Virus record (IMG/VR): IMGVR_UViG_3300029448_000416
Location: 1 to 24,691 of that record
From: a virus
DNA length: 24,691 bases
Direction: 5' to 3' (one strand)
The notes below the pieces were generated by a model, which was given only the letters and a program-made list of their open reading frames with translations, was not told the DNA's origin and made no database searches. The number at the start of each line of letters is the position of its first letter. Positions within the stretch are counted from its first letter, which is position 1. This document shows, one piece after another, positions 1-23,235 of the stretch. The position numbers and the translations under genes were made by a program.

Positions 1-253
1 ATTCTTCGGTAGCGGCACGAGCCTTGAGGCCCTCGATGCCCCCTGCTGTCTGTTCAGGAGATGCAAACTGAGATGTTACGACAGCTTCACTCACATCCTC
101 GACAACGTCTTGGACCTTTGGCCTGAGACCACGAGCCTGAAGTGCCTGTTCTACATAGTCTTGCTCATCTTCTTCTCCGGGAGCAGGAGCCTTTTCCACT
201 ACGATTTCAGGCTTGGTATCGTCTTGTTGTTCTTCGGGTTTGATCGGGTCCAT
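1..253 (-). CDS. Acidic phage protein, N-terminal part only (cut by window edge)
   Basis: The reading frame starts with ATG at 253 and stays open to the left edge, giving about 84 residues. It begins MDPIKPEEQQDD and is rich in Glu, Asp, Gln and Pro, with a low-complexity opening typical of disordered N-termini. The ATG shares one base with the stop of the upstream lysozyme-domain gene (TAATG), and a GAGG Shine-Dalgarno-like element lies about 9 bases upstream. Position after a run of large virion proteins suggests another internal virion protein, but that is inference from context only. No domain is recognisable in the visible part. Confidence 0.75.
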   Translation of the reverse strand, partial: MDPIKPEEQQDDTKPEIVVEKAPAPGEEDEQDYVEQALQARGLRPKVQDVVEDVSEAVVTSQFASPEQTAGGIEGLKARAATEE

Positions 254-3200
254 TATCGATCCTCTTCTCTATCGAGAGCGCCTGCTTCAAGTTGTTCGTA
301 TACGCTGTTAGCTTCTTTACTTCGTTTGTCGAGATCTTTAATTCTCATATCCCTCTGAGCAGATCCCTTTTTCATGGTATATGGGTTAGCTCCGTAGGTT
401 AGAGTATATACATTCGTCATGTCATCCAAGTCTTTTCCGGTTTCTTTGCTTCTAAGCACATAGAATGCGGTCAAAACTTTTAACCCAATATCAGGCCTAA
501 GAACCAAATCTGGGTTATTCACCAAATCAACTCCGATGATATCTCCAATCGCTTTATAATTACGCTTGCCGGTCAATTGAATGTAGCCTCGACCTCTGTA
601 GTCGTACCCGCCTAGTTCTGGGTACATCGCATCAAAAAATGCCTTATCGTCTTTTTTAAGTTCATTCAGTTCTGCGTTGCTAAACTTACTTGCTCTTCGG
701 CCCATTGCTCTGCGTATCTGTGAAACTGAAGTATTTCTGTAACTCATTTCAACTGCATCGTGCCTCATTCCGGATTCCCCGGCTATCATGCCTATTATAT
801 TCGCCTGTGCTCTTGGACTTGTGATACCGAATTCTTTCAAAGAGTTTACCACACTTCTCTTTACGTCTGACTCAGTCTCCAGTGGAACGTATCCTTCAGG
901 AATATCTGCAGGCTTTGGAGCGTCAGCCTGTTCAGGTACGAAACCCTCCGGCCTCGGAACGGGGAAAGGTGTGCTACCTCCGGGCCTTGGTACGGGACGA
1001 GGTACGAGACCGTCCGGCCCTTCGTCCCCTTTCATACCTGCGGCGTCAAACTCTGCGGATGCCAACCTACGTGCCTCTGCCTGTTGGCGAGCTATCTCAT
1101 CAGTGTCTGTGGGCTCGCCCCTCATACGTGCGAGTTGTCGGGCCCGTTCGGCATCTTGCTCTGTACGGGCTTGCTCACGTTCTCGTCTACGCTTATTTGC
1201 TTCGTCGGCCAATATGATGTCGATAACACCCTGTCTATTCATAGGGACATCGCGAACGGGACTTGCAGATACAGGAGTAGTAGGTACGACGTCCTCAGAA
1301 ACGGGCTTCCCGATAGGTTGAGGAGCTGGTGACGAAGCGGGTTGAGCATCTGGTATCGTAGCAGGTTCAATGGCAGGCAGTTCTAGATCTTCCTTCGGTT
1401 GTTCTTCGACAGGTTGAGAGTCACCTATCGGTTGATTTTTTTTTTCACCCGGGGGAGTGATGATAATTCCTGCGGGTTGATTTTCTTGATTGTCAGCACC
1501 TGCTGGCTGTGTAGGAGCAACCTGAGGAGACGATTCTGCCGGAGCAGGTTGGGCTGGCTGTTCGACCTTAATCATTTGCAAGGATTGACTACCAATAGCT
1601 AGCTTTCTATTTTCACCGTTGATATCCGTGTACTCTACTTGGAATACACCATCGAGAATCTTGGGATCTCCCTGAGATAACACGGGCTGATCGTTCTCAT
1701 CAACTGCTTGACTAATTTCAATACGACTATCCGGAGCCATGTCAGGCAACTTAATGCCGGATTTCAATTTCACATCGGGACGTTGATTATAAGCCTGATT
1801 CGGGTCTAATACAACAGATCTAAAACCTGCATCTCTAGCTCGAAGGGAATCGAGTACTAGTCCACTAGCCTTCAAGTTTCTCAAGGACTGATTGATTGTA
1901 GCATTCGTGTCCGAATCTTGATAATAGGATAGCTGTGGTATTCTACGTAGATCTTCGCTGACATTCTGAAATAGTCCATATTGAAACTTGGCTTCGTCAA
2001 GCAAAATTCCGAGACGTTCCATAGTACGTCCTTTAGATTCAGGCAGAGATCCTTTGATGATTTGTAGCGACTTTTCAAAATCTTTTTCAGATAGTCGGGC
2101 GGCAGTACCTTCGAGTGCTTTGGCCCTGTAGTAAGCAAGCTCATAAGCCTTGATATCCGCAAGGGACAAGAGGTAGTCTCGCTTTTTAGTACCATATGCT
2201 TCAGCGTCAGTCAATGTTCCGAGTTTTTCAGTTAAGTAATTTCTTGCAGAATCGGATAGTTCTGTATCATTTTTAATAATTTCTAAGAAACTGTTTGCGT
2301 TGTCTATCCCTTTGGTTACCAAAATCTCTAGGTTGCTCTGGTCCAATTCTTTACGAGCATTGTAGAGGTCTTGAACAGTTTGAAAGCTCCTACGTGAGTT
2401 TTCTAAACGCTCTGGAAAATCTTCAGGATCTCCAACCGTGTTGGTAAATGCATTTATATACTTATCTTTCATAGGTACGGGAGAAAAGGTGTTCACGCCC
2501 GTCCTATCTGGTCTTGGAATATCAATATCATACTCCAAAGGCATGAACGCCGAGAGACCCTTGGTAATTGACACTGCATTTAGATTAGGATTGAGTAGGA
2601 GGTTGTTTGCAAAGTTCTGGAACATTGCCACATTTGCGTTATTACCCCTATCGAGTGAACCATTTGCAAGGATCTGACCAGCGATTGGAAGCTTCATAAA
2701 TTCTTGTGCAAACTCCTGTATATACGGAGCCGTGCCACTGCGTTGTGCAACGCGACCAATGATGAATTTTGTTGCTTCTTCCGGATTTTTTTTAAGCTGG
2801 GCTATCTGATTTGGTGTAGCGCCATGATTTTTTAGAGCTCTTGAAATGTATATCGGATTCTTTGTAAAGTAACTTGATAATTGGGTACCAGCCCCTAAAC
2901 CCATAAAATCTTCAGCTAGTTCTTCGGAAGGAGCTTTACCTGCGTCGTTTAGAGGTTCTGGTCTGTTACTTTCTGGATTATAAGCGAAGGATTTACCGTT
3001 AGAGTCTTGTAATTGTCCTTGATTTTTTAAGAAATTTTTTAAGAATTTATCTGAGTCCGGATAGAGTATGGCAGGGGAACGATTAGGAAATTTCCTAGTA
3101 CCGTCTGCATTTCTCTCATCAAAGTATCCGTAGAGCTGGTTATGTACATCAAATAATGTATTACTAAATGCTTGGCGCTGTTGATCAGTAGCGGTGCTAC

Positions 3201-3591
3201 GCCACTGTTCAAATTCAGGGCTTTTTATAAACAGATCAAAATCAGAAGCAATTCCGAGCGTCCTTTCGTCACCGTCGCCCTCACGCGCATTGAATTTTGC
3301 AAAGCGAGCTTTGCCGCCAAAATTGTAATATTCCTCATCGTTTGCAACTGAGTTGTAGGTACCTAAAAGTTTAAAACCTTCTTGCAAGTCTTCCGCGCTC
3401 TGCGCACCCAAGACAGTTGCAACGTACGGGCCCATTTTATCAGCGGGAAGATCTTTACCGAGCGTCAGAGCTATCTTCTGTTGATCTCCAAACCGCTCTG
3501 CCTGCTGAAGTTTAGCGATGCGCCTCTCTTCAAACTTTTGATTGACAAAATTTGTGGCACCGAAAATAGCGCCTCCCAAATCAAACTTCAT
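253..3591 (-). CDS. Large virion protein with C-terminal GH19-like lysozyme domain
   Basis: This is a 1112-residue protein. I chose ATG at 3591 (MKFDLGGAIFGATNF) over a TTG 30 bases upstream because AAGGAA precedes the ATG at good spacing. Residues 1-670 are soluble, mixed and unrecognised. Residues 676-785 are Pro/Gln-rich, about 795-850 form a charged Arg/Glu/Ala helix, and 860-885 carry PRPVPRP and PVPRP repeats. From about residue 899 to 1050 lies a GH19 (chitinase class I) type lysozyme fold. It has GESG with the likely catalytic Glu near residue 939, then RGRGYIQLTG and DLVNNPDLV, which are hallmark stretches of phage GH19 endolysins. I infer an ejected internal virion protein that opens the peptidoglycan during genome entry. 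It is not in the lysis cassette, and it follows other putative internal virion proteins. Confidence 0.85.
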   Translation of the reverse strand: MKFDLGGAIFGATNFVNQKFEERRIAKLQQAERFGDQQKIALTLGKDLPADKMGPYVATVLGAQSAEDLQEGFKLLGTYNSVANDEEYYNFGGKARFAKFNAREGDGDERTLGIASDFDLFIKSPEFEQWRSTATDQQRQAFSNTLFDVHNQLYGYFDERNADGTRKFPNRSPAILYPDSDKFLKNFLKNQGQLQDSNGKSFAYNPESNRPEPLNDAGKAPSEELAEDFMGLGAGTQLSSYFTKNPIYISRALKNHGATPNQIAQLKKNPEEATKFIIGRVAQRSGTAPYIQEFAQEFMKLPIAGQILANGSLDRGNNANVAMFQNFANNLLLNPNLNAVSITKGLSAFMPLEYDIDIPRPDRTGVNTFSPVPMKDKYINAFTNTVGDPEDFPERLENSRRSFQTVQDLYNARKELDQSNLEILVTKGIDNANSFLEIIKNDTELSDSARNYLTEKLGTLTDAEAYGTKKRDYLLSLADIKAYELAYYRAKALEGTAARLSEKDFEKSLQIIKGSLPESKGRTMERLGILLDEAKFQYGLFQNVSEDLRRIPQLSYYQDSDTNATINQSLRNLKASGLVLDSLRARDAGFRSVVLDPNQAYNQRPDVKLKSGIKLPDMAPDSRIEISQAVDENDQPVLSQGDPKILDGVFQVEYTDINGENRKLAIGSQSLQMIKVEQPAQPAPAESSPQVAPTQPAGADNQENQPAGIIITPPGEKKNQPIGDSQPVEEQPKEDLELPAIEPATIPDAQPASSPAPQPIGKPVSEDVVPTTPVSASPVRDVPMNRQGVIDIILADEANKRRREREQARTEQDAERARQLARMRGEPTDTDEIARQQAEARRLASAEFDAAGMKGDEGPDGLVPRPVPRPGGSTPFPVPRPEGFVPEQADAPKPADIPEGYVPLETESDVKRSVVNSLKEFGITSPRAQANIIGMIAGESGMRHDAVEMSYRNTSVSQIRRAMGRRASKFSNAELNELKKDDKAFFDAMYPELGGYDYRGRGYIQLTGKRNYKAIGDIIGVDLVNNPDLVLRPDIGLKVLTAFYVLRSKETGKDLDDMTNVYTLTYGANPYTMKKGSAQRDMRIKDLDKRSKEANSVYEQLEAGALDREEDR

Positions 3592-4135
3592 CGCTAGGTT
3601 CCTTGTTGTTAGATCCAACAAAACTTTCTTCGTTTATCTTTTCGGCGGATTCCCTCATAACGGCACCGTCCCGTAGTTGCTTGTTGAGCTCTTCGCCTAG
3701 GGCTTCGAACACATCTGGGAAAGCAGTCTTGATACCGCGCAGGATATTTTCGTCATTCTCACTACGGATCACGCCCGCGTCTTCTTTAGCAAATAGCTTA
3801 TAGGGTATGCCCATGCCCTCGGCGAGGTCTGTCAGGTAGAGAGCCAGAGGGGGTCGGATGACTAGCATGGTGTCCACGGAAATGAGACCAATCTGAAATA
3901 GCTGTTTGGTTATGCCCGTAACAATAGCTTCGATGGGGACACCAATCAACATCGTCTCTACGATCGAAGCTCGCGCTTTAGGCATTTCAAATTTGTTAAG
4001 GACGTGTGTGATTGCGTCGTCCGGATCTGAAATCATAGGTGGTTTAGACCACGGAAAATCATCGTTATCTACAGCGAGAGATGCTCCCGGTATAGGTCTT
4101 TCAAAGATACGTTCTTGGATTCTTCTACGAGCCAT
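3581..4135 (-). CDS. Unknown phage protein, 184 residues, probable virion component
   Basis: ATG at 4135 is preceded by AAAGG about 11 bases upstream. The protein begins MARRRIQERIFERP and has a central region of hydrophobic helices (residues about 60-110, with IGVPIEAIVTGITKQLFQIG), then an acidic C-terminal third rich in Glu, Asn and Lys. I see no signal peptide or clear transmembrane segment. The end overlaps the start of the large lysozyme-domain gene by 11 bases. It lies in a four-gene block with other putative internal virion proteins, so a structural or assembly role is likely. The family is not one I can name. Confidence 0.8.
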   Translation of the reverse strand: MARRRIQERIFERPIPGASLAVDNDDFPWSKPPMISDPDDAITHVLNKFEMPKARASIVETMLIGVPIEAIVTGITKQLFQIGLISVDTMLVIRPPLALYLTDLAEGMGIPYKLFAKEDAGVIRSENDENILRGIKTAFPDVFEALGEELNKQLRDGAVMRESAEKINEESFVGSNNKEPSDEV

Positions 4136-6310: not shown

Positions 6311-6488
6311 CTTGTATTTCCTTTGCGACCTTCATATTCTTGATGCGCTTCTTGTCTTGCTTCGCCTCGATTTCCCTCTTCTTGTTCTGCCCACCAGACC
6401 AATAGACGCCGAAGATACCAGCAATTAGCACACCCGCAAGAATGAGGTAGTACTGTATCCGGCCGGGTATCAGGTTCAGAAGCCACAT
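6243..6488 (-). CDS. Inner-membrane spanin subunit (Rz-like)
   Basis: This is an 81-residue protein. I chose ATG at 6488, which overlaps the amidase stop as ATGA and has GGAGATAGG upstream; a GTG three bases earlier is possible. Residues about 13-31 (YYLILAGVLIAGIFGVYW) form one transmembrane segment. A Lys/Glu-rich coiled coil follows (about 34-68), with a basic end WVRRK. One N-terminal membrane anchor plus a periplasmic coiled coil is the i-spanin plan. Its neighbour is a nested lipoprotein gene, and the gene sits directly after the endolysin, as in many phages. The primary sequence is not diagnostic; the call rests on topology and context. Confidence 0.82.
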   Translation of the reverse strand: MWLLNLIPGRIQYYLILAGVLIAGIFGVYWSGGQNKKREIEAKQDKKRIKNMKVAKEIQDEIKALDDGNLRDRASKWVRRK

Positions 6489-7102
6489 CACCTATCTCCG
6501 TTGGCCCACTTCTTGAGGCGCTCACGCATGATCCACAAGCCAGCCAATACAATCAGGCCAGCAAATACGAGTACGATGTACTGAGCATTGGCATCCAAGC
6601 CACTGACTGTGGATATGGCCGTACCTGCACCGGAGGCGATTGCCACACCAGAGGCCTGAACTGTGGTGGACTGGGCAAGTGACTTGCGTACGTTGCCTAC
6701 GTTTTTATATTCTTCTTTGGCATCGAAGCAGGGGCAAGCCTTCGCTGAGAACTCACGATGACCGTGGACTGACGCGCCGGGAAAGCGTTCCTTCAAGTCC
6801 ATGATCAGATTGAGCATGGCATCCTGTTGTTGCTCGGTGCGGGTGTCCTTCGGGCTACCGTCCTTATCCAAGCCGCCTACGTAGCACACGCCGATGGAGT
6901 TGCGGTTGTGGCCTTTGGTGTGTGCACCGATCTGCTCGAGAGGGCGACCTTCTTCGATAGTGCCATCCAAGCCGATGAGGTAGTGGTAGCCTATGCCTGA
7001 CCAGCCGCGTTTCTTGTGCCACATGTCTACCTGCTTGGCAGTGACATTTTGGCCCTCGTGGGTTGCGGTGCAGTGGACAATAATTTTGTTGATCTTGCGC
7101 AT
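6488..7102 (-). CDS. N-acetylmuramoyl-L-alanine amidase endolysin with C-terminal membrane anchor
   Basis: This is a 204-residue protein. ATG at 7102 overlaps the upstream stop (ATGA) and is preceded by GGAGGAG at ideal spacing; a GTG 30 bases earlier is less likely. Residues 4-137 match the zinc amidase_2/T7 lysozyme fold. Zinc ligands H10, H115 and C123 have the T7 spacing (T7: H17, H122, C130). Y39 and K121 align with the T7 catalytic Tyr46 and Lys128. It should cut the MurNAc-L-Ala bond in peptidoglycan at lysis. Unlike T7 lysozyme, it continues with a Gly/Ala/Ser linker and a transmembrane segment at about 173-192 (QYIVLVFAGLIVLAGLWIM), ending in a basic tail. The anchor suggests membrane-tethered holding until the holin acts, but that is inference. 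Confidence 0.93.
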   Translation of the reverse strand: MRKINKIIVHCTATHEGQNVTAKQVDMWHKKRGWSGIGYHYLIGLDGTIEEGRPLEQIGAHTKGHNRNSIGVCYVGGLDKDGSPKDTRTEQQQDAMLNLIMDLKERFPGASVHGHREFSAKACPCFDAKEEYKNVGNVRKSLAQSTTVQASGVAIASGAGTAISTVSGLDANAQYIVLVFAGLIVLAGLWIMRERLKKWANGDR

Positions 7103-7350
7103 CAATTTGCTCCTCCACCCCACTTCATCCACGCGCCCATTGCAAGGGCCGCAAGGAGTGCCGTGGTCATCATTTTCGTAATGGTTGTGCCTACGGTTTT
7201 TTTCATCGACCTCCAGCCATCGATCAGGTCGCGGAGATCGTGGATGTCCTTGCCTGCGTCCTCGTCACTGAGACCAACGCGTTGAAGGGCGCGTTGAGCA
7301 CCCTTCTCTGCGGCTTGGTCAATAATTACTTGGAGTTGTTCGTCTGTCAT
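7102..7350 (-). CDS. DUF6127-like single-span membrane protein, holin candidate
   Basis: This is an 82-residue protein, first gene of the lysis cassette. ATG at 7350 has CGGAAG upstream. Residues 1-50 are charged and helical (IIDQAAEKGAQRAL, then VGLSDEDAGKDIHDLRDLID-W). Residues about 55-73 form one transmembrane helix (TITKMMTTALLAALAMGAW) with a short Gly-rich end. The VGL-x-D-E-x-A...DI-x-DLR-x-L arrangement matches what I recall of DUF6127, a family found next to phage amidases. Position directly before the amidase, with an ATGA overlap, makes it the best holin or pinholin-like candidate here. No other small membrane protein sits upstream. The function is inferred, not shown. Confidence 0.72.
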   Translation of the reverse strand: MTDEQLQVIIDQAAEKGAQRALQRVGLSDEDAGKDIHDLRDLIDGWRSMKKTVGTTITKMMTTALLAALAMGAWMKWGGGAN

Positions 7351-7415: not shown

Positions 7416-8120
7416 TTAGATAGTCACCCATCCTGTTAGGATGTATTTGTCATTGGATAATGGGGGATTGCCTCGGTGCATTGCGGTGTAATTTGCAGGT
7501 GCAATAATCAATGTACCCTTCTCCGGTACAACACGTATGCTCTGTTTTAGAAACTCAGTTTCTCCACCTTCCGCCACGTCGTTCAGATACAGTATGAAGA
7601 AACATATTCTATTCATTGTTTCATGTTCAGCGGCTTCGTAGTGCCAGACGTGATAACCTTCAGAAGGTTTTGTTTTTTGTAACTTGATACCGTCTACTTT
7701 TAGAAGCCTTGATGTTTCATCACACATGTGCGAATCTTCTATATAATATGATAGAGCTACGTTAAAACCTTCACAAAAAATTCTATAAGAAGTTGTGTTA
7801 GTTTCTTTATAATGTTCGTCATTTTCTTTTGGTATAAAAAGATCTGCTTCCCCCGGTTCAATTAAATTTACCGTTGTATCTTTTTTAACTGTGGTGTGAA
7901 TATTATTTTCTGTCGACTGTCTATCATAATCATATCTCAAAGACTTCCCTTGTTCATAGCAATCTATCAACAAATCACAGAATTCGTGACTAAACATATG
8001 ATTATATATAGCGATGTCGCAGTTTCTTACGTGATTTCTAACGGGCATCTTGTTAGCAACTACAAAGCCATTTGACATCTTAAGGATAGTATCTTCTTTA
8101 TTTTCAACTTCATTAGTCAT
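7416..8120 (-). CDS. 2OG-Fe(II) oxygenase, prolyl-4-hydroxylase-like
   Basis: This is a 234-residue protein. ATG at 8120 (MTNEVENKED) follows AAAGGTG; a GTG 9 bases earlier is less likely. Residues about 150-234 form the double-stranded beta-helix core: GYHVWHYE with the H160-x-E162 metal pair, then ILYLNDVAEGGETEF, a P4H-family signature. The distal ligand is H215 (AMHRG) and the likely 2-oxoglutarate-binding residue is K225 (KYILTGW). It should use Fe(II), O2 and 2-oxoglutarate to hydroxylate a substrate that the sequence does not reveal. The gene is AT-rich, about 25-37% GC in hand-counted 60-base lines against 63% in the amidase, which suggests separate ancestry. It lies 34 bases after the Asn-synthase-like gene and may act with it. 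Confidence 0.88.
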   Translation of the reverse strand: MTNEVENKEDTILKMSNGFVVANKMPVRNHVRNCDIAIYNHMFSHEFCDLLIDCYEQGKSLRYDYDRQSTENNIHTTVKKDTTVNLIEPGEADLFIPKENDEHYKETNTTSYRIFCEGFNVALSYYIEDSHMCDETSRLLKVDGIKLQKTKPSEGYHVWHYEAAEHETMNRICFFILYLNDVAEGGETEFLKQSIRVVPEKGTLIIAPANYTAMHRGNPPLSNDKYILTGWVTI

Positions 8121-8154
8121 AAGGTACACCTTTCTATAAAAAGACTAAACTAGC

Positions 8155-8910
8155 TTAATAGTACCCTACAAGATGCCTATGTGTACAGACATGCCATTGT
8201 GTATCCGGTTCACAATGACCCAAAACTCTTAGTTTTCCAAAAATTCTATTCTGTGACTCTGGAAATGCATTATGGAAGTAATGTTTAGGATATCCTTTTG
8301 TAGCCTCAACATAAGTCCAATTCCAAAAATAGTCTTTAAAACGAGTATCCAAGAATGGAAATCTAGTCGTTATACCAAACGGCTGTGATAGTGCATCAAG
8401 CCACTGTTCTAACTGACGTGTCACTTCAATAGTTCTGAGTTTATCCTCTCGAACTTCATCTATACTAGGATAAATCCTGAGTGGGTTATTAGAATACTCC
8501 AGTTCTGATTTTGCAATGCTCTGACCAAAGCCCCCTGTTACATACTGCTCGGTAATGTGAGGTAAAGTTTTATATTGAGGATAGAGCTGTATTATTCTGC
8601 TCGGTCTGTCCGAACAAAAGCCAAACGACTGCATATAATCTACGTCTTCCTGCTGTCTACCATCGTCTGTAAGGGTAACGGATGTGTGTCTCCACCCCAT
8701 TATGTCAGCTATTTCTCTTGCTTTGGTAGAGTCGTAATTTTCTATACCATCCACGTCAAAAGTATATGCGTGTACTCGTTTACCGGCATGATGACAGGCC
8801 AATCCTACTGTGGTTGAATCGATTCCCCCTGATAGAAAAAGAGCTACATCGTCAACAGGAAACATGTCAGACACTATATCTACAAGAAGATTTCCTAAGT
8901 CTGACATCAT
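8155..8910 (-). CDS. Asparagine-synthase-like PP-loop ATPase without glutaminase domain
   Basis: This is a 251-residue protein from ATG at 8910, followed at once by a second ATG; no good Shine-Dalgarno is seen, and the upstream stop is only 2 bases away. SGGIDST at 27-33 is the PP-loop ATP-pyrophosphatase motif. RFPFLD at 183-188 matches the conserved E/R-x-PFLD segment of asparagine synthase C-terminal domains. Family enzymes adenylate a carboxylate and replace AMP with an amine. The N-terminal glutamine amidohydrolase domain of AsnB is absent, so ammonia or another amine would be needed. The usual G-x-G-x-D-E segment appears as TGGFGQS without the acidic pair. QueC or NAD-synthetase-like enzymes are alternatives but lack PFLD. 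The substrate is unknown. Confidence 0.78.
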   Translation of the reverse strand: MMSDLGNLLVDIVSDMFPVDDVALFLSGGIDSTTVGLACHHAGKRVHAYTFDVDGIENYDSTKAREIADIMGWRHTSVTLTDDGRQQEDVDYMQSFGFCSDRPSRIIQLYPQYKTLPHITEQYVTGGFGQSIAKSELEYSNNPLRIYPSIDEVREDKLRTIEVTRQLEQWLDALSQPFGITTRFPFLDTRFKDYFWNWTYVEATKGYPKHYFHNAFPESQNRIFGKLRVLGHCEPDTQWHVCTHRHLVGYY

Positions 8911-8912
8911 GA

Positions 8913-9242
8913 TTATAAACCCGGTCTTAGTTGAACAAGTTGCGCCTGTTTTTTAAGCTCAGTTAAATTTTCAGTGTGCATCTGTAGCAACATATCTAAA
9001 AAAGCATTGCCTCCCTGCTTTTCAAGAACCCACTGATATATTTGCTCGTCTGTGACATCATCAGCGTCGATAAAATCATCGAGATCGCCGCTAACTTCTA
9101 AATACGTTTCTATGTTTGCCGAGCTTGTGAAATCCCCATCGTGAAAATTAAGAATCCAAACAACGCGCTCAATAACATTTTGTCTGCCATTTAGTTCTGG
9201 ATATACGTGTACTTCGTCAATTTGGTAGTCTTGATGAATCAT
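8913..9242 (-). CDS. Small acidic phage protein downstream of tail fibre, unknown
   Basis: This is a 109-residue protein. ATG at 9242 overlaps the stop of the glycine-rich fibre gene (ATGA), with GGAG about 11 bases upstream. The first half looks like beta strands (VHVYPEL, VIERVVWILNF, then HDGDFTSS). The second half is an acidic helix with LDDFIDADDVTDEQIYQWVLEKQGG. The V-x-x-V-x-W ... DG-x-x-x-S ... L-T/D-x-E-Q-x-x-x-W-V pattern resembles a small family I recall after tail fibre genes in marine phages; I cannot name it. A tail-assembly or fibre-chaperone role is a guess from position. Confidence 0.75.
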   Translation of the reverse strand: MIHQDYQIDEVHVYPELNGRQNVIERVVWILNFHDGDFTSSANIETYLEVSGDLDDFIDADDVTDEQIYQWVLEKQGGNAFLDMLLQMHTENLTELKKQAQLVQLRPGL

Positions 9243-10426
9243 CAGCTTGTTGCTCCGTTAATTGTACCTGTGTTGTTGATAGTTACCGTGCCGGAACTCA
9301 TGTTGATAGCCTTACCTGCGGCACCACCAGAAGATCCGCCAGCACCACCGGAACCAGCAGAACCATTGGTGCGGTTACCGTTATTACCTGTAGCACCTGT
9401 GTTACCTGTAGCGCCTGACGCACCTGCGTTACCGAACGTACCACCGTTGCCCCCGGTACCGCCTGTACCACCTGTACCACCCCTGCCAGCGTTTGTTCCT
9501 CCATTGGCACCTGTAGCACCTCCTGCACCCCCAGATCCGTTCACTTGAGATAGGCCAAATCCCTGACCGCGTCCACCAGCACCACCGGCACCGCCAGCGC
9601 CCCCGGCACCTCCGTTTGTGTTCACTGTGTTTGTTGTGTTAGTTACACGACGGATTCTAAAACGATCGACTGATCCAAAAGATGACGCTAAACTACCTTT
9701 GGTATATGTGCTGTTACCTGAAGTTGTTGAAGTTATATTTGCTTGGTTACTGGAAAAATCCCTCTGAAACCCATCAAATTTGAATCTTACTAAATTTGCG
9801 CCGCCCTGTCTTTCGCCCTGATCCACTTGAAAATGCATGTTAACATATCTATTATTTGAGTTATAAACAAACCCCGTATCAGAGGTATTTGTCGTGGTAA
9901 AGCTACCACCACCGCCTGTACCACCCGTACCGCCAGAACCACCTCGGCCACCACCACCGCCGCCGCCTCGGACAGCGCCAGTGTTGTTCAAAGTAAAGCT
10001 AACACTGGCTTCAATTGCGTTACCGCCCGCACCACCAGCTCCGCCCGTACCAGCAGAACCAGATGTACCTACGATTTCACCCGCATTGTCAATTTCTAGA
10101 GTTCCGCCCATACCAGATGGGATAGTCAGGGTGCCAATGGTCGTGCCTGAGTTAATTGTAAATCTCTTAGGTACGGCTGTGGCATAGTTTGCACCGAAGG
10201 TTGTAGAAAGGTTTACAGCGGCGGCGGCAGATGCGGTAACTCCAATTTCATTTACCGCGTTATAAAAATTTTGTATACCGATCTGACCCGACGTGGGCAC
10301 GTTAGTATTGTTACCGGGTACAAGGCCACCTTCGCGGAAGAATTCGGACATGCTATGTGGGGCAGTGTCGCCAAACTCTGCCGCAATCTGCGATAGTTTA
10401 ATTTCGCCCGAACCCTGTAGTGCCAT
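9242..10426 (-). CDS. Glycine-rich tail fibre or adhesin
   Basis: This is a 394-residue protein. ATG at 10426 follows GGAGG inside the end of the S74 fibre gene. The N-terminus MALQGSGEIKLSQIAAEFG and a following SGQIGIQNFYNAV segment are typical of marine phage tail proteins in my experience. Glycine-rich blocks lie at 123-136, 154-174, 272-289 and 298-372 (GGAGGAGG, GGTGGTGG patterns). Between them are short strands, three with a shared core: EIDNAGEIVG, TLNNTGAVRG and TINNTGTING. Such blocks can pack as polyglycine-II helices, as in phage S16 gp38-type adhesins. It probably forms the receptor-binding tip, working with the S74 fibre just upstream. The exact receptor cannot be told. Confidence 0.82.
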   Translation of the reverse strand: MALQGSGEIKLSQIAAEFGDTAPHSMSEFFREGGLVPGNNTNVPTSGQIGIQNFYNAVNEIGVTASAAAAVNLSTTFGANYATAVPKRFTINSGTTIGTLTIPSGMGGTLEIDNAGEIVGTSGSAGTGGAGGAGGNAIEASVSFTLNNTGAVRGGGGGGGRGGSGGTGGTGGGGSFTTTNTSDTGFVYNSNNRYVNMHFQVDQGERQGGANLVRFKFDGFQRDFSSNQANITSTTSGNSTYTKGSLASSFGSVDRFRIRRVTNTTNTVNTNGGAGGAGGAGGAGGRGQGFGLSQVNGSGGAGGATGANGGTNAGRGGTGGTGGTGGNGGTFGNAGASGATGNTGATGNNGNRTNGSAGSGGAGGSSGGAAGKAINMSSGTVTINNTGTINGATS

Positions 10427-10427
10427 C

Positions 10428-11714
10428 TTACTTAGCCTCCAGTTTCTCTACACGCTTGGTGAGTTCTTTGACCGCCTCGATGAGCAAGGCGTGAAGTTGG
10501 TCGTACTGCACAACGTCGTACTCTGTAGTGTCATCTTCGCCGTTTGGAGACTTGAGGGGGAGAGTCGTTTCACGAACAGCGGAGGGAAGAACCTCGCGTA
10601 CTTCCGTAGACATGACACCGGCTGACTCACGACCGTCCACCTTGTAATTAAAGGTATAGCCAGTAAGTTTTGCGACCTTATCTAATGCACCCTCGACAGG
10701 CTGAATGTTGTCTTTGAGTCGAGGATCGGAGGTGGTTGTAGAGAACGCGATCACGTCTCCGTCAACGTGCAGGTCGCCATCGTTCTCGAGGCGCATGTCG
10801 AGGTTGCCGTCGAGTTGGAAATCGATGGTGGTGGTACCCACACTAATGAAGTCGTTGGTATCCTGACCAAATTGAGTGACGTGTCCTCTGAGATCGCTGT
10901 CCAGAGATATGGATACATCACCCGACGCGCCGCCCCCACTGAGGCCATTGCTCACGCTGACGTTAGTGATGTCGCCTACGTTGGTTGTGAAGCCTGAGTC
11001 ATTATTGAATCCGGAGATATTGACGTTGCCCTTAGTGAGTTTGCGCTGGGTTCCGGCTGAATCAAGAACAACGAAGAAGTCCCCATCGCCGTTAGATGTA
11101 GAGGTATCAAGCTCGTTGAGATTGAGGGAAATTGTGGGTGTACCACCTTCTGCGGAAGAAGAGCCATCCAGACCAGCGCCCGTTGCAATTGTAGCAACGT
11201 AGTTACCTGTGGTTTTTGTGCCGAGAGCCACGGAATTGTCTGCAATTGTCGTTGCAAAAGACACACTTCCCAAGTTGGACATTGTACCCGTGCCGGTCAC
11301 GTTACCAGTCAAGGTGATGCTCGGGTCTTTGTTCAAAGTAACCACACCGGCAGAAACAGAAAAATCAGTTGCATTAAACTGGGCAATGCCCTTGGCAGTC
11401 GTAGAAGCATTCGTACCTGAAACGGTAACTGCGGCAGTTTCAACACCCGATCCAGAAATAGCGATACCGGTACCTGCGGCTACCGTTGCAACGTAGTTAC
11501 CCGTTGTTTTTGTACCCAAGGCTACGGCATTGTCTGCGATACCTGCCCCTTCTATCTGAGGTCCTTCGCCCGTCGTGCCATCATGGCTGTGACCTGCGGA
11601 GGCGTTAAAAGCACTCTGAATGGCATCAAACTCGCCATCGAGATCCGAAGCGTTAATCACGTTACCGTCAGCAATGTTGTTGCCCGTATCGTTTCTTGTA
11701 TAGCCAGTACCCAT
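10428..11714 (-). CDS. Tail fibre with C-terminal peptidase S74 chaperone
   Basis: This is a 428-residue protein. ATG at 11714 has AGAAGG upstream. The N-terminus (MGTGYTRNDTGNNIADG, then DLDGEFDAIQSAFN and GHSHDG) is a recurrent phage fibre start that probably binds the tail. Residues 55-325 are Thr/Ser/Gly-rich beta repeats. From residue 326 comes the S74 intramolecular chaperone: TTTSDPRLKDNI with the Ser329/Lys334 dyad, GYTFNYK, SAGVMSTEVREVLP, and a terminal coiled coil (LIEAVKELTKRVEKLEAK). The domain directs trimer folding and then cuts itself off just before the catalytic Ser. A 26-residue segment is duplicated (residues 59-84 and 157-182). The stop lies one base before the adhesin ATG (TAAGATG). 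Confidence 0.92.
   Translation of the reverse strand: MGTGYTRNDTGNNIADGNVINASDLDGEFDAIQSAFNASAGHSHDGTTGEGPQIEGAGIADNAVALGTKTTGNYVATVAAGTGIAISGSGVETAAVTVSGTNASTTAKGIAQFNATDFSVSAGVVTLNKDPSITLTGNVTGTGTMSNLGSVSFATTIADNSVALGTKTTGNYVATIATGAGLDGSSSAEGGTPTISLNLNELDTSTSNGDGDFFVVLDSAGTQRKLTKGNVNISGFNNDSGFTTNVGDITNVSVSNGLSGGGASGDVSISLDSDLRGHVTQFGQDTNDFISVGTTTIDFQLDGNLDMRLENDGDLHVDGDVIAFSTTTSDPRLKDNIQPVEGALDKVAKLTGYTFNYKVDGRESAGVMSTEVREVLPSAVRETTLPLKSPNGEDDTTEYDVVQYDQLHALLIEAVKELTKRVEKLEAK
11169..11540 (-). repeat. Direct repeat pair inside the S74 fibre gene
   Basis: Two 78-base copies (11463-11540 and 11169-11246) encode almost the same 26 residues, IADNAVALGTKTTGNYVAT and its IADNSVALGTKTTGNYVAT partner, with 98 codons between starts. 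They look like a duplicated shaft module. Third-position differences show the duplication is not recent. Confidence 0.75.
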
Positions 11715-19641: not shown

Positions 19642-22600
19642 TTATCCGTAGACTCTTTTTGTGTAGTCACGGTAAATATCTAGAGCGGAGTCGTAGTCCA
19701 TATCAGCGTATCCGTCGCTAATAGCTGTTCCAACATTTGGAACCATCCTAGGTCCAAATTCATAAGAAGAGAGACTTTCAGTGGCATTCATTCTTCTCAT
19801 CTCATCGTATTGAATTGCATTCATAGCGGCAGAAGTGCCCTGACCGTATATCGATGGTTGCATAGGAACGCTAAAAAATACATCTTTTCCTACGTTTTTA
19901 GCTACCTTACGATCTACCATGTCTCCGGGGCGCGGTCCTTTAATCTCTGTACCTCCCGGCAAACGATAGCTTTGATCTTCTTCTTGCCAAAACCAATCTT
20001 CGGGAGGTTCATAAGCTACCAAACCACCTCTTGCGTATCCTTGGGCAGGAGCGGCTACGAAACCCTCTCGGGGAGCCTTTTCTTCTTCTGCCTCTTTTTG
20101 TAGTTTTGCGACTTTCTTTTTGCCGCGATTGTTGATTTTTTCTAGACGGGAGATGCCGATCTCTTCTGCGATCTCAGGGGGTAGGTAGACCTCTCCTTCA
20201 GATACTAGAAGGGGTACGGTGTCCTCATCCACTTTTGCGCCAGATTTCGTAGCGATCCTATTGCCTTTGGATCTTAAAGAATCCATAGCTTCGGTAATAA
20301 GCTCTTGAATGTACATCTTACCAGCTTGAGCAACGGCAGGAGCGTTGATTACAAAACCACCATCTTCACCCTTCATTGGCACGTCGTCTGCAACGTTATC
20401 AGGGGAGAGTGTTTCGTTCGTTTCCGGCTGACCCACCATAGTCGGATCTTGGATTGCTCCACCTTCAGCCATTTTTCTTTGGATTATGCCGCCGAGAGCC
20501 ATCTTCATTTCTGGAGATTTGACTTTGTCTCCTACGGTCTTCAAGGTAACCAAGTCGCGAGACATTCGCTCTCGTTCGGAAGCTGTCAAACCTTCTTTGA
20601 TGAAGTATAGGGGATCGTCGCCTTCTCCTGTGATGCGATTCTTGAGTAGCTTGCTCATCGTCAGAGAGTCTACCGGCATACCGAACTTCTGAGCGAGCTG
20701 TACATCAATCAAGATGTCGTTTGTCTTGCGCATCATATCACGAGGATTTATGAAATTTGAACCGGTGCGGTTTACAGTTCCACCGGAAGCGTAGGTTGGT
20801 CTAGGAGCAGGTATAGGCACCGATTTTGGGCCGATCATAAAAGCAGGATCTACTTTTAAAGTTGCTTTATCGTTAAAATAAGCACTGACAGGATTTGTAA
20901 GTTGAGCATTACTAATGTCTCTAATTTCAAAATGAAGATGAGCTCCGGTGCTAGAACCAGTGTTACCAGATATACCTATTACATCTCCTTTTTTTACCTC
21001 ATCTCCCTCTTTTACAACAGAGTTATTACTCAAATGAGCATAAAGACTTACAATGCCGTTGTCATGTTGTACCATTACGTCCTTTCCATACCCAGTATTA
21101 TTAGTGTATGTACGTATGACTACTCCATCTAACATGGAAAATACGTCAGTTCCTGTTTGTACAGCAAAATCCAGCCCATTATGATTTTTAGTTTTTCCTG
21201 TAAAGGGATCTTTTCTATAACCAAAGTTACTTGTCAATGTTTTGTCCGTAAACAAATTATTGGCAAGTGGAAAACCGGGGTTCATAGAATTTACTTTTTC
21301 ATAGTTTTGATATGCTAAAGCACCTTTTTTTAAGCGAGATTCGTATTCTTTTTTAGTTGGGATCACAACTACTGGAGGCAGTTTGTCTGCTGGTCTCTTT
21401 CTAGGGGTCGGGATAGTCACGTTTGGAGGAGTAGTGACAGGAACAACAGGAGTTTCCGGGTCGAGATTTGCCTGAACCTTAGTATTAGGAGGAACAACTT
21501 CCCCGGCTGGTCTAGCAACAGGTCTCGGTACACCAAAACCTATGTCAGCTTCCATATTTGTATAATCAGCATTGGGTACAAACGCTACATCTGGTCGAGC
21601 TACGGGAGTCGGAATGGCTTCACCCGGGCGGGCAACTGGTGTCGGAGTAGATGGTGTAGGAGCATCCCCCGGACGGGCAAATGGTGTCGGAATGGCTTCA
21701 CCCGGACGAGCACGTGGTGTTGGAACAGACGGGGTAACTTCGCGAGCTACGTTCTGAACGAGGGTAGAAGCATTTCTATCTATTGCCATTCCTAGGCCCG
21801 AATACTTTCCAACAACAGCGGCCACATCAGGGCTCACCGGAGTTGCAAAGTCTGGGCTCACCGGAGTTGCAAGGTCTGGGCTCACCGGAGGTGCGAGGTT
21901 CGGAGTTGGCAGGCCCGAAACGGGTTGAGAGATTCCGTAATCAGGTCCCGGTATGTTCTCTGCCGCGTCGCGAAGTTGCCCTGCGAGTTCTTGGGCTCTT
22001 TCCTGCGTCATCGTAATCGTGGGTCGAGCCTGTGGCATAGGTATGTCAGCAGGTCGGGCTTGTGGAATCTGCATATCAACAGGGCTAGTTTGTGGCGTTG
22101 TTATACCAGCAGGTTGAGTAGACGGTGTTGATATATCTGCAGGGCGAGCCTGTGGTGTTGGAATATCGGAGGGTCGAGCCTGTGGCATCGGAATATCAAA
22201 GGTTTCTGATGCCATATCCGGAACTGTAAACGAATCAGCAAGGGCTCCTGCCGGTACCGCTTGTGACACTATTTGTTCAGCCGCGATGTCAGCTAAATTT
22301 CTAGTACCAAGATCTGCCGCTACGTAGCCTGCTACAGCACCCGGTATACTTCCTGTAGCGTTGAAAACGGTTTGAGCAATCTCCCCACCAACAAAAGGTC
22401 CGGCAAATCCCCCTACGACAGAAGATAGGGCATTTTGAGCGGCTGTCTTTGCATCAATCTCAGTACCCAGTATTTGAGATTCCATGGCTGTCTGAGTTAA
22501 ACCTCCGAGCGCATTTGCCACCGGAGGACTTATTAAACCGCCTAGCATAACTCCCGTTACGGTATTGGCTATGGAACCTGCCGTTCTGGCGGCGTCTACA

Positions 22601-23235
22601 ACCGATATGTTACCAAATTCTCGCTCTGTTGTAGCCATTCTCCCGAGGGACCCGGTTCTACCTAGCAGTCCAAACTGTCCAGCTCCTGCAAGTGCGGACT
22701 GTGTGGCTAACTGGGTATCTATGAACCCGGTATCAGTCATCGCCGTTGTCGAGGCGGTTAGATCGTTAAATGCCGGTCCCAAAACACTTATTTGTGCGCC
22801 CGGGCTAGGTCCGTACATTTGATCCGGGGCCGTTTCTAACCCTACAGCGTAATCCGGAAATGCATCGTTAAAATCATTGATACTCATCGACGAAGAGAAT
22901 ACATCGCCTATTGAATCTACGAGTGCCGAAGCAAAATTAGAGCCTGTTGCAGTAGAGGCGTCAATAGCCCTATCCCGCATATCCATGATTGCATCAGCGC
23001 GAGTTCTATCGAACGTAACTATCGTGCCATCGTCGTAAGTAACCGTCCTGTCACCCGTGCGGTCACCGCTACCTTCGTTACCACCACTGTAGGAACCTAC
23101 GTTACCCGGACCCCCGTCGTCTGGGCCTTCATCACCTTCCATGCCACCGTAGCCGAAATCACCTACAAAGCACCCGTGCAGGCTGACGTACCAGTCTTCA
23201 TTATGATTCCAACTATCAATCAGCCTTTTGTACAT
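19642..23235 (-). CDS. Large virion-associated protein with M23 metallopeptidase domain and Pro-Arg repeats
   Basis: This is a 1197-residue protein. ATG at 23235 shares a base with the portal stop (TAATG), with AGAAGG upstream. Residues 30-70 are Gly/Asp-rich; 100-340 are Ala/Gly-rich with mild hydrophobic helices. Residues 347-406 and 501-576 carry repeats such as DIPMPQARP and IPTPVARP. Residues 660-787 form an M23 (LytM-type) domain with zinc ligands H685 and D689 (HNGLD), H734 (YAHL) and H768 in GAHLHFE, so it looks active on peptide cross-links. The C-terminal part has GEDGGFVINAPAV, LVSEGEVYLPPEIAEEIG and INNRGKKKV, a module common in marine phages next to portals. The M23 stretch is distinctly AT-rich, suggesting later insertion. 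Whether it enters the virion is inference. Confidence 0.87.
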   Translation of the reverse strand: MYKRLIDSWNHNEDWYVSLHGCFVGDFGYGGMEGDEGPDDGGPGNVGSYSGGNEGSGDRTGDRTVTYDDGTIVTFDRTRADAIMDMRDRAIDASTATGSNFASALVDSIGDVFSSSMSINDFNDAFPDYAVGLETAPDQMYGPSPGAQISVLGPAFNDLTASTTAMTDTGFIDTQLATQSALAGAGQFGLLGRTGSLGRMATTEREFGNISVVDAARTAGSIANTVTGVMLGGLISPPVANALGGLTQTAMESQILGTEIDAKTAAQNALSSVVGGFAGPFVGGEIAQTVFNATGSIPGAVAGYVAADLGTRNLADIAAEQIVSQAVPAGALADSFTVPDMASETFDIPMPQARPSDIPTPQARPADISTPSTQPAGITTPQTSPVDMQIPQARPADIPMPQARPTITMTQERAQELAGQLRDAAENIPGPDYGISQPVSGLPTPNLAPPVSPDLATPVSPDFATPVSPDVAAVVGKYSGLGMAIDRNASTLVQNVAREVTPSVPTPRARPGEAIPTPFARPGDAPTPSTPTPVARPGEAIPTPVARPDVAFVPNADYTNMEADIGFGVPRPVARPAGEVVPPNTKVQANLDPETPVVPVTTPPNVTIPTPRKRPADKLPPVVVIPTKKEYESRLKKGALAYQNYEKVNSMNPGFPLANNLFTDKTLTSNFGYRKDPFTGKTKNHNGLDFAVQTGTDVFSMLDGVVIRTYTNNTGYGKDVMVQHDNGIVSLYAHLSNNSVVKEGDEVKKGDVIGISGNTGSSTGAHLHFEIRDISNAQLTNPVSAYFNDKATLKVDPAFMIGPKSVPIPAPRPTYASGGTVNRTGSNFINPRDMMRKTNDILIDVQLAQKFGMPVDSLTMSKLLKNRITGEGDDPLYFIKEGLTASERERMSRDLVTLKTVGDKVKSPEMKMALGGIIQRKMAEGGAIQDPTMVGQPETNETLSPDNVADDVPMKGEDGGFVINAPAVAQAGKMYIQELITEAMDSLRSKGNRIATKSGAKVDEDTVPLLVSEGEVYLPPEIAEEIGISRLEKINNRGKKKVAKLQKEAEEEKAPREGFVAAPAQGYARGGLVAYEPPEDWFWQEEDQSYRLPGGTEIKGPRPGDMVDRKVAKNVGKDVFFSVPMQPSIYGQGTSAAMNAIQYDEMRRMNATESLSSYEFGPRMVPNVGTAISDGYADMDYDSALDIYRDYTKRVYG

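Follow-up and report, generated by a model that had tools for sequence, protein, structure and literature searches.

A divergent CmoY-like ligase and an HxE-type 2OG-Fe(II) oxygenase, apparently separate cargo genes, in the tail/lysis slot of a putative HMO-2011-type podophage

Closest described systems

CmoY of Synechococcus phage S-B43 joins glycine to 5-carboxymethylcytosine (5cxmC) in DNA (PMC12783734, Nat Commun 2025). In this pathway CmoA yields carboxy-SAM, CmoX transfers the carboxymethyl group and CmoY then ligates the glycine (PMC12783734). The ligase described here resembles the S-B43 enzyme in being a stand-alone Asn-synthase C-domain of similar length without a glutaminase domain, and in its PP-loop (SGGxDS) and HAYTF region. 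It is, however, only 25-30% identical to CmoY, is devoid of the CmoY motifs KT(H/D)xEC, GxxAD and NKPxQK, and is found at a tail/lysis position rather than in a replication or DNA-modification module, with no CmoA or CmoX nearby.

The gene next to the ligase encodes a 2OG-Fe(II) oxygenase. An earlier note on this DNA proposed that the two enzymes act in two steps on a virion protein, a tail adhesin, a host surface glycan or a small molecule. DNA was absent from that list of targets, and the characterised relative, CmoY, acts on DNA and not on protein.

The phage fragment and its late genes

The window, that is, the whole stretch of 24,691 bases that was analysed, is an IMG/VR virus record comprising about half a genome. 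Judged from its genes, it is a fragment of an HMO-2011-type marine podophage, because the coat and tail proteins are homologous to those of such phages and the gene order is the same. Identity to the coat protein of pelagiphage HTVC033P is 57%, the large tail protein has 34-47% identity to those of the Roseobacter CRP phages and HMO-2011, and the portal gene conforms to the same homology and order. The replication module of the HMO-2011 family falls outside the 24.7-kb record.

All late genes are on the minus strand. The series begins with the portal gene, an M23-peptidase protein of 1197 aa with proline-rich P-x-ARP repeats (19642..23235; PF01551, 1.2e-29), scaffold-like, coat and tail genes, and a tail fibre with a C-terminal S74 chaperone (10428..11714; PF13884, 1.7e-12). 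The fibre, which has homologues in CRP-207, CRP-603 and CRP-345, forms the upstream border of the slot considered here. It is followed by a Gly/Asn-rich tail-associated protein of 394 aa (9242..10426; phrog_10745, 2.6e-30), the small DUF7936 gene (8913..9242; PF25590, 2.8e-10), which ends 2 nt upstream of the ligase and whose product is a possible tail-associated chaperone, the ligase (8155..8910) and the oxygenase (7416..8129). The DUF6127 gene (7102..7350; PF19622, 2e-24; homologues in CRP-207 and CRP-603) is the downstream border, and an Amidase_2 endolysin comes next (6488..7132; PF01510, 3.3e-18; phrog_822, 2.6e-65). A protein of 1122 aa encoded on the same strand at 253-3621 has a proline-rich linker and, at its C-terminus, a GH19 chitinase/lysozyme domain. 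The location claimed earlier for the pair, between tail fibre and lysis genes, is correct, and the two genes would be expressed late; a promoter-like TTGAAA-17-TAGAAT is present at 7409-7381, but matches of this class are about as frequent as expected by chance (8 found against 6.4 expected).

The pair is AT-rich, as the earlier note had observed. The GC content is 36.1% in the oxygenase gene, 40.1% in the ligase gene and 38.0% in the two together, against 47.2% in the window and 54.9% in the amidase gene, and just 1.6% of overlapping segments of the pair's length are equally AT-rich. Lines of 60 bases have 23-47% GC in the oxygenase gene and reach 65% in the amidase gene. The AT-rich block also includes the DUF7936 gene (38.8% GC). 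The low GC content of the pair fits recent acquisition but does not prove it, because third-position GC is nearly as low in a few other genes.

The content of the slot differs among cultured relatives. The DUF6127 gene immediately follows the fibre in CRP-207, two tail-type genes separate them in CRP-603, and in HTVC033P 2OG-type genes lie between the tail-fibre genes and a g4752-like gene. The HTVC033P genes belong to other subfamilies and were rejected as orthologues of the window oxygenase. Beside two of them is gp58 (L123, 4481-5125), annotated as a putative ferrochelatase, which looks 2OG-oxygenase-like by eye and gives no match to the profile of the window's oxygenase subfamily. Among 11 HMO-2011-type records, none has a PF00733 gene and five have a PF13640 gene. 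Lysozyme or spanin genes are near the terminase gene in the cultured relatives; in the window the amidase gene is beside the tail/lysis slot. A scan based on the amidase, which samples the slot, matched other phage types, none of them with the ligase or the oxygenase.

The ligase

Both reading frames of the pair are where the earlier note had placed them, and its assignment of the 251-aa ligase to the Asn-synthase-like PP-loop enzymes is borne out. The protein matches Asn_synthase (PF00733, 4.5e-15) and carries SGGIDS within the putative ATP-binding PP-loop LFLSGGIDS (residues 24-32, computed from the residue numbers to be at 8815..8841, minus strand). An AlphaFold2 model (pLDDT 80.8, pTM 0.82; low confidence at residues 132-144 and 232-245) has the fold of asparagine synthetase and beta-lactam synthetase, with human asparagine synthetase (Z 19.6), carbapenam and beta-lactam synthetases and E. 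coli AsnB as structural matches. The C-domains of AsnB and beta-lactam synthetase share with the ligase the fold (Z 18.5-19.6), the PP-loop, the R-x-PFLD segment and the lysine before the NAF segment; in contrast to them, the 251-aa ligase has no N-terminal glutaminase domain and GFGQS replaces GxGxDE. The match to TIGR01536 is confined to positions 250-353 and scores 49.5 bits against a cut-off of 267. QueC was rejected as an identity, PF06508 scoring 24 bits against 57 for Asn_synthase.

The nearest relatives of the ligase in the public phage collection and in IMG/VR are CmoY proteins, and tblastn gives the same match in phage S-B05 as in the CmoY of S-B43. A CmoY profile built without the window ligase gives it 118 bits, well above the cellular AsnB background (11 bits) and an unrelated PP-loop protein (15 bits). 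When the four most divergent CmoY relatives are held out of the profile, the window ligase scores 111 bits and the ligase of PaBG, the most divergent one linked to CmoX/CmoA, scores 143. In the tree the window ligase has a long branch at an intermediate position, outside the CmoY clade and towards AsnB, and support for this placement is modest (89/84). Its lineage is a single sequence: single-protein scans of IMG/VR with the whole protein or its first 90 aa found no close homologue, none was found in the plasmids searched, and the single cellular match is in Bacillus sp. M6-12.

The motifs of CmoY are replaced in the ligase by RPSRIIQ for KT(H/D)xEC, GFGQS for GxxAD and TKGYPK for NKPxQK. SGGIDS, GK, Y49, F51, D60, W73, R154, P185 and K209 are retained, the PP-loop being conserved in all CmoY relatives. 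K103, E107, C108, A130-D131, N204, P206 and Q208, nearly invariant in the other relatives, are absent, and a stretch of four residues is missing as well. By these features the window ligase would not be classed as a standard CmoY.

The usual neighbours of its relatives are genes of DNA modification and replication. CmoX and/or CmoA is near the ligase gene in 77 of 120 related loci, counted within the DNA that was fetched, and the neighbours are dominated by CmoA-type methyltransferases, C5-methylases, RecA, DNA polymerase B and other replication genes. Together with the family relationship and the established glycine ligation to 5cxmC (PMC12783734), this would agree with a working CmoY-type DNA enzyme that adds an amine to 5cxmC. 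CmoA and CmoX are absent from the window, but it holds about half a genome, and the partner genes may therefore lie in the unsequenced half. The altered motifs, the modestly supported branching outside the CmoY clade and the location in the late tail module instead of the replication module argue against such an enzyme. No CmoA is found in the cultured HMO-2011-type phages, and their sole C5-methylase, that of CRP-603, was rejected as a CmoX, with a weak match and no CmoA beside it. We consider a DNA-modifying role for the ligase unlikely.

CmoY-like genes without a recognisable CmoX or CmoA in the fetched DNA are present at 43 loci, some of them short fragments; examples in marine T4-like phages include L060, L083, L130-L132, L138, L140 and L154, among others. 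In Achromobacter phage Motura (L246, 4398-10167) an AsnB-like gene is part of a 7-deazaguanine DNA modification cluster with QueC, a transglycosylase, QueE and GTP cyclohydrolase.

The aspartate of the GxGxD motif is lost in the ligase (GGFGQS). Its counterpart in beta-lactam synthetase is a Mg2+ ligand, and the activity of the ligase may therefore be reduced or altered. A decaying or inactive ligase beside a functional oxygenase would account for this loss, for those of E107, N204 and the four-residue stretch, and for the two regions of low model confidence. On the other hand, the frame of 251 codons is intact with coding-like GC by codon position, and the PP-loop, the RFPFLD segment and the catalytic-type Lys209 are kept, which makes an inactive remnant distinctly unlikely. 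We favour an active ligase that has changed its role: an ATP-using PP-loop carboxylate-amine ligase, most likely from a phage CmoY-like lineage, would have left the DNA-modification setting, its substrate-side motifs would have changed, and it would probably act on another substrate.

The oxygenase

The reading frame at 7416-8129 (minus strand) encodes 237 aa from a GTG. The true start is more probably the ATG at 8120, giving 234 aa, because AGAAAGG is found about 8 nt before it. The earlier identification as a 2OG-Fe(II) oxygenase is confirmed by matches to 2OG-FeII_Oxy_3 (PF13640, 2.4e-10) and phrog_61 (4.7e-36). The predicted model (pLDDT 80.8, pTM 0.81) superimposes on the prolyl 4-hydroxylase (P4H) of P. 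putida with Z 19.3 and 2.9 A over 179 residues; algal P4H, PBCV-1 vCPH and PHD2 are further structural matches, and among the 50 Foldseek matches listed P4H/PHD and lysyl hydroxylases prevail, two others being biosynthetic oxygenases.

The double-stranded beta-helix fold (Z 16.8-19.3), the distal His and the 2OG-binding Lys are common to the oxygenase and the P4Hs (PBCV-1 vCPH, P. putida PPHD and B. anthracis P4H), but identity is 14-25%, the substrate region differs, and the phage subfamily has HxE in place of HxD. H163-Y-E165 aligns with HYD of the B. anthracis enzyme, E165 taking the position of the HxD aspartate. All 19 residues invariant in 65-67 phage relatives, including H163, E165, H218 and K228, are present in the window oxygenase, which is predicted to be catalytically intact. 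The whole phage subfamily being HxE, prolyl specificity should not be assumed. Asparaginyl hydroxylation is a trait of other 2OG families.

The oxygenase is closest to the phrog_61 proteins of cyanophages and pelagiphages. It is 35-40% identical to those of S-H38, S-SSM7 and HTVC027P and has the motifs EGYHVWHYE and HRGNPPL in common with them; it differs in a longer N-terminus and in A216, where most have H. The 103 proteins encoded next to its relatives include 12 2OG oxygenases (one Pfam family), seven tail Collar proteins, four with Gly-rich domains (Gly_rich_2), three Trp halogenases and two sulfotransferases. The subfamily often recurs beside tail-collar and Gly-rich tail genes and other tailoring enzymes, in line with the tail setting described by the earlier note. 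The window oxygenase would most likely hydroxylate a late phage protein or a small molecule associated with the tail or surface.

A cluster with three halogenases, or with a carbamoyltransferase, is also seen repeatedly around the relatives. At L001, L173, L206, L214, L218, L222 and L232 the gene for an oxygenase of this subfamily precedes another 2OG enzyme gene and then tandem tryptophan-halogenase-like genes, three per locus and four at L232. A similar cyanophage cluster has been proposed to decorate polysaccharide or to make a secondary metabolite (Iyer and colleagues, PMC7824862).

Two genes without a conserved pairing

The adjacency of the two genes is not conserved. An oxygenase of the window's subfamily adjoins the ligase gene at none of 120 related ligase loci, and a CmoY-like ligase adjoins the oxygenase at none of the oxygenase loci, about 103 in number; as many of the loci compared are short fragments, and as they were searched with short peptide patterns, rare pairings could be missed. 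One contig with a ligase relative (L110) does include a 2OG gene, but of another kind, with HxD. The co-occurrence that the earlier note had offered as a check is therefore lacking in roughly 220 related loci. As none of the related viruses found keeps the genes together, they look, on comparison of the loci, more like two unconnected pieces of cargo than like a machine dedicated to two successive steps.

A locus elsewhere (L006, 5112-9702) has a tail slot with a Gly-rich protein, a tail assembly chaperone and two PF13640-type 2OG oxygenases, followed by TctC, a solute-receptor gene, and a PP-loop protein with SGGMDS. It was rejected as another instance of the pairing, its PP-loop protein being related to the ligase at the superfamily level only.

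Sequential action of the ligase and the oxygenase on a common target, be it a virion protein, an adhesin or a molecule of the surface, would suit the adjacency of the genes in one late block, their similar AT-rich composition, the tail-collar and Gly-rich neighbours of oxygenase relatives and the analogous array in L006. The unconserved pairing, the distant relationship of the L006 PP-loop protein and the scarcity of proline in the adhesin speak against it, and we regard it as very doubtful. Of the earlier reading, the enzyme families, the AT-richness and the place in the genome stand; the joint two-step system is unsupported. Very doubtful too is that a CmoY-like ligase moved to the late tail slot was repurposed to share with the HxE oxygenase the hydroxylation and amidation of a virion protein or of a molecule bound to the tail; if true, this would be an undescribed type of phage cassette for post-translational tailoring.

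The Gly/Asn-rich adhesin, suggested earlier as the substrate, is a poor one for prolyl hydroxylation. It has 102 Gly, 40 Asn and 5 Pro in 394 aa, and all five prolines are in the first ~125 residues, none in the repeats. Per 100 aa, the repeats of the M23-peptidase protein contain as many as 25 Pro and the linker of the GH19 protein as many as 23; for the M23-peptidase protein of four relatives the maxima are 7-17. Should the oxygenase be a prolyl hydroxylase, the M23-peptidase and GH19 proteins of the window would be better first candidates than the adhesin.

Implications

The explanation that we hold to be on balance probable is that the ligase and the oxygenase are cargo genes acquired independently of each other, in a variable slot bordered by tail-fibre/adhesin genes on one side and lysis genes on the other, the former a repurposed CmoY-like ligase and the latter a tail-associated hydroxylase. 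Their functional independence is suggested because, among the loci compared, they share none apart from the window and have different habitual neighbours.

The search for hydroxyproline in such phages would better start from Pro-rich virion proteins than from Gly-rich adhesins, and the survey of oxygenase relatives points to a set of hydroxylases, halogenases and sulfotransferases that is widespread next to the tail genes of marine phages. The unusual part of the locus is the ligase, CmoY-like with altered motifs in an unusual context. It is an outlier beside the recently discovered CmoY family, outside the DNA-modification setting, and may record a case in which amide-ligase chemistry passed from DNA to a different substrate.
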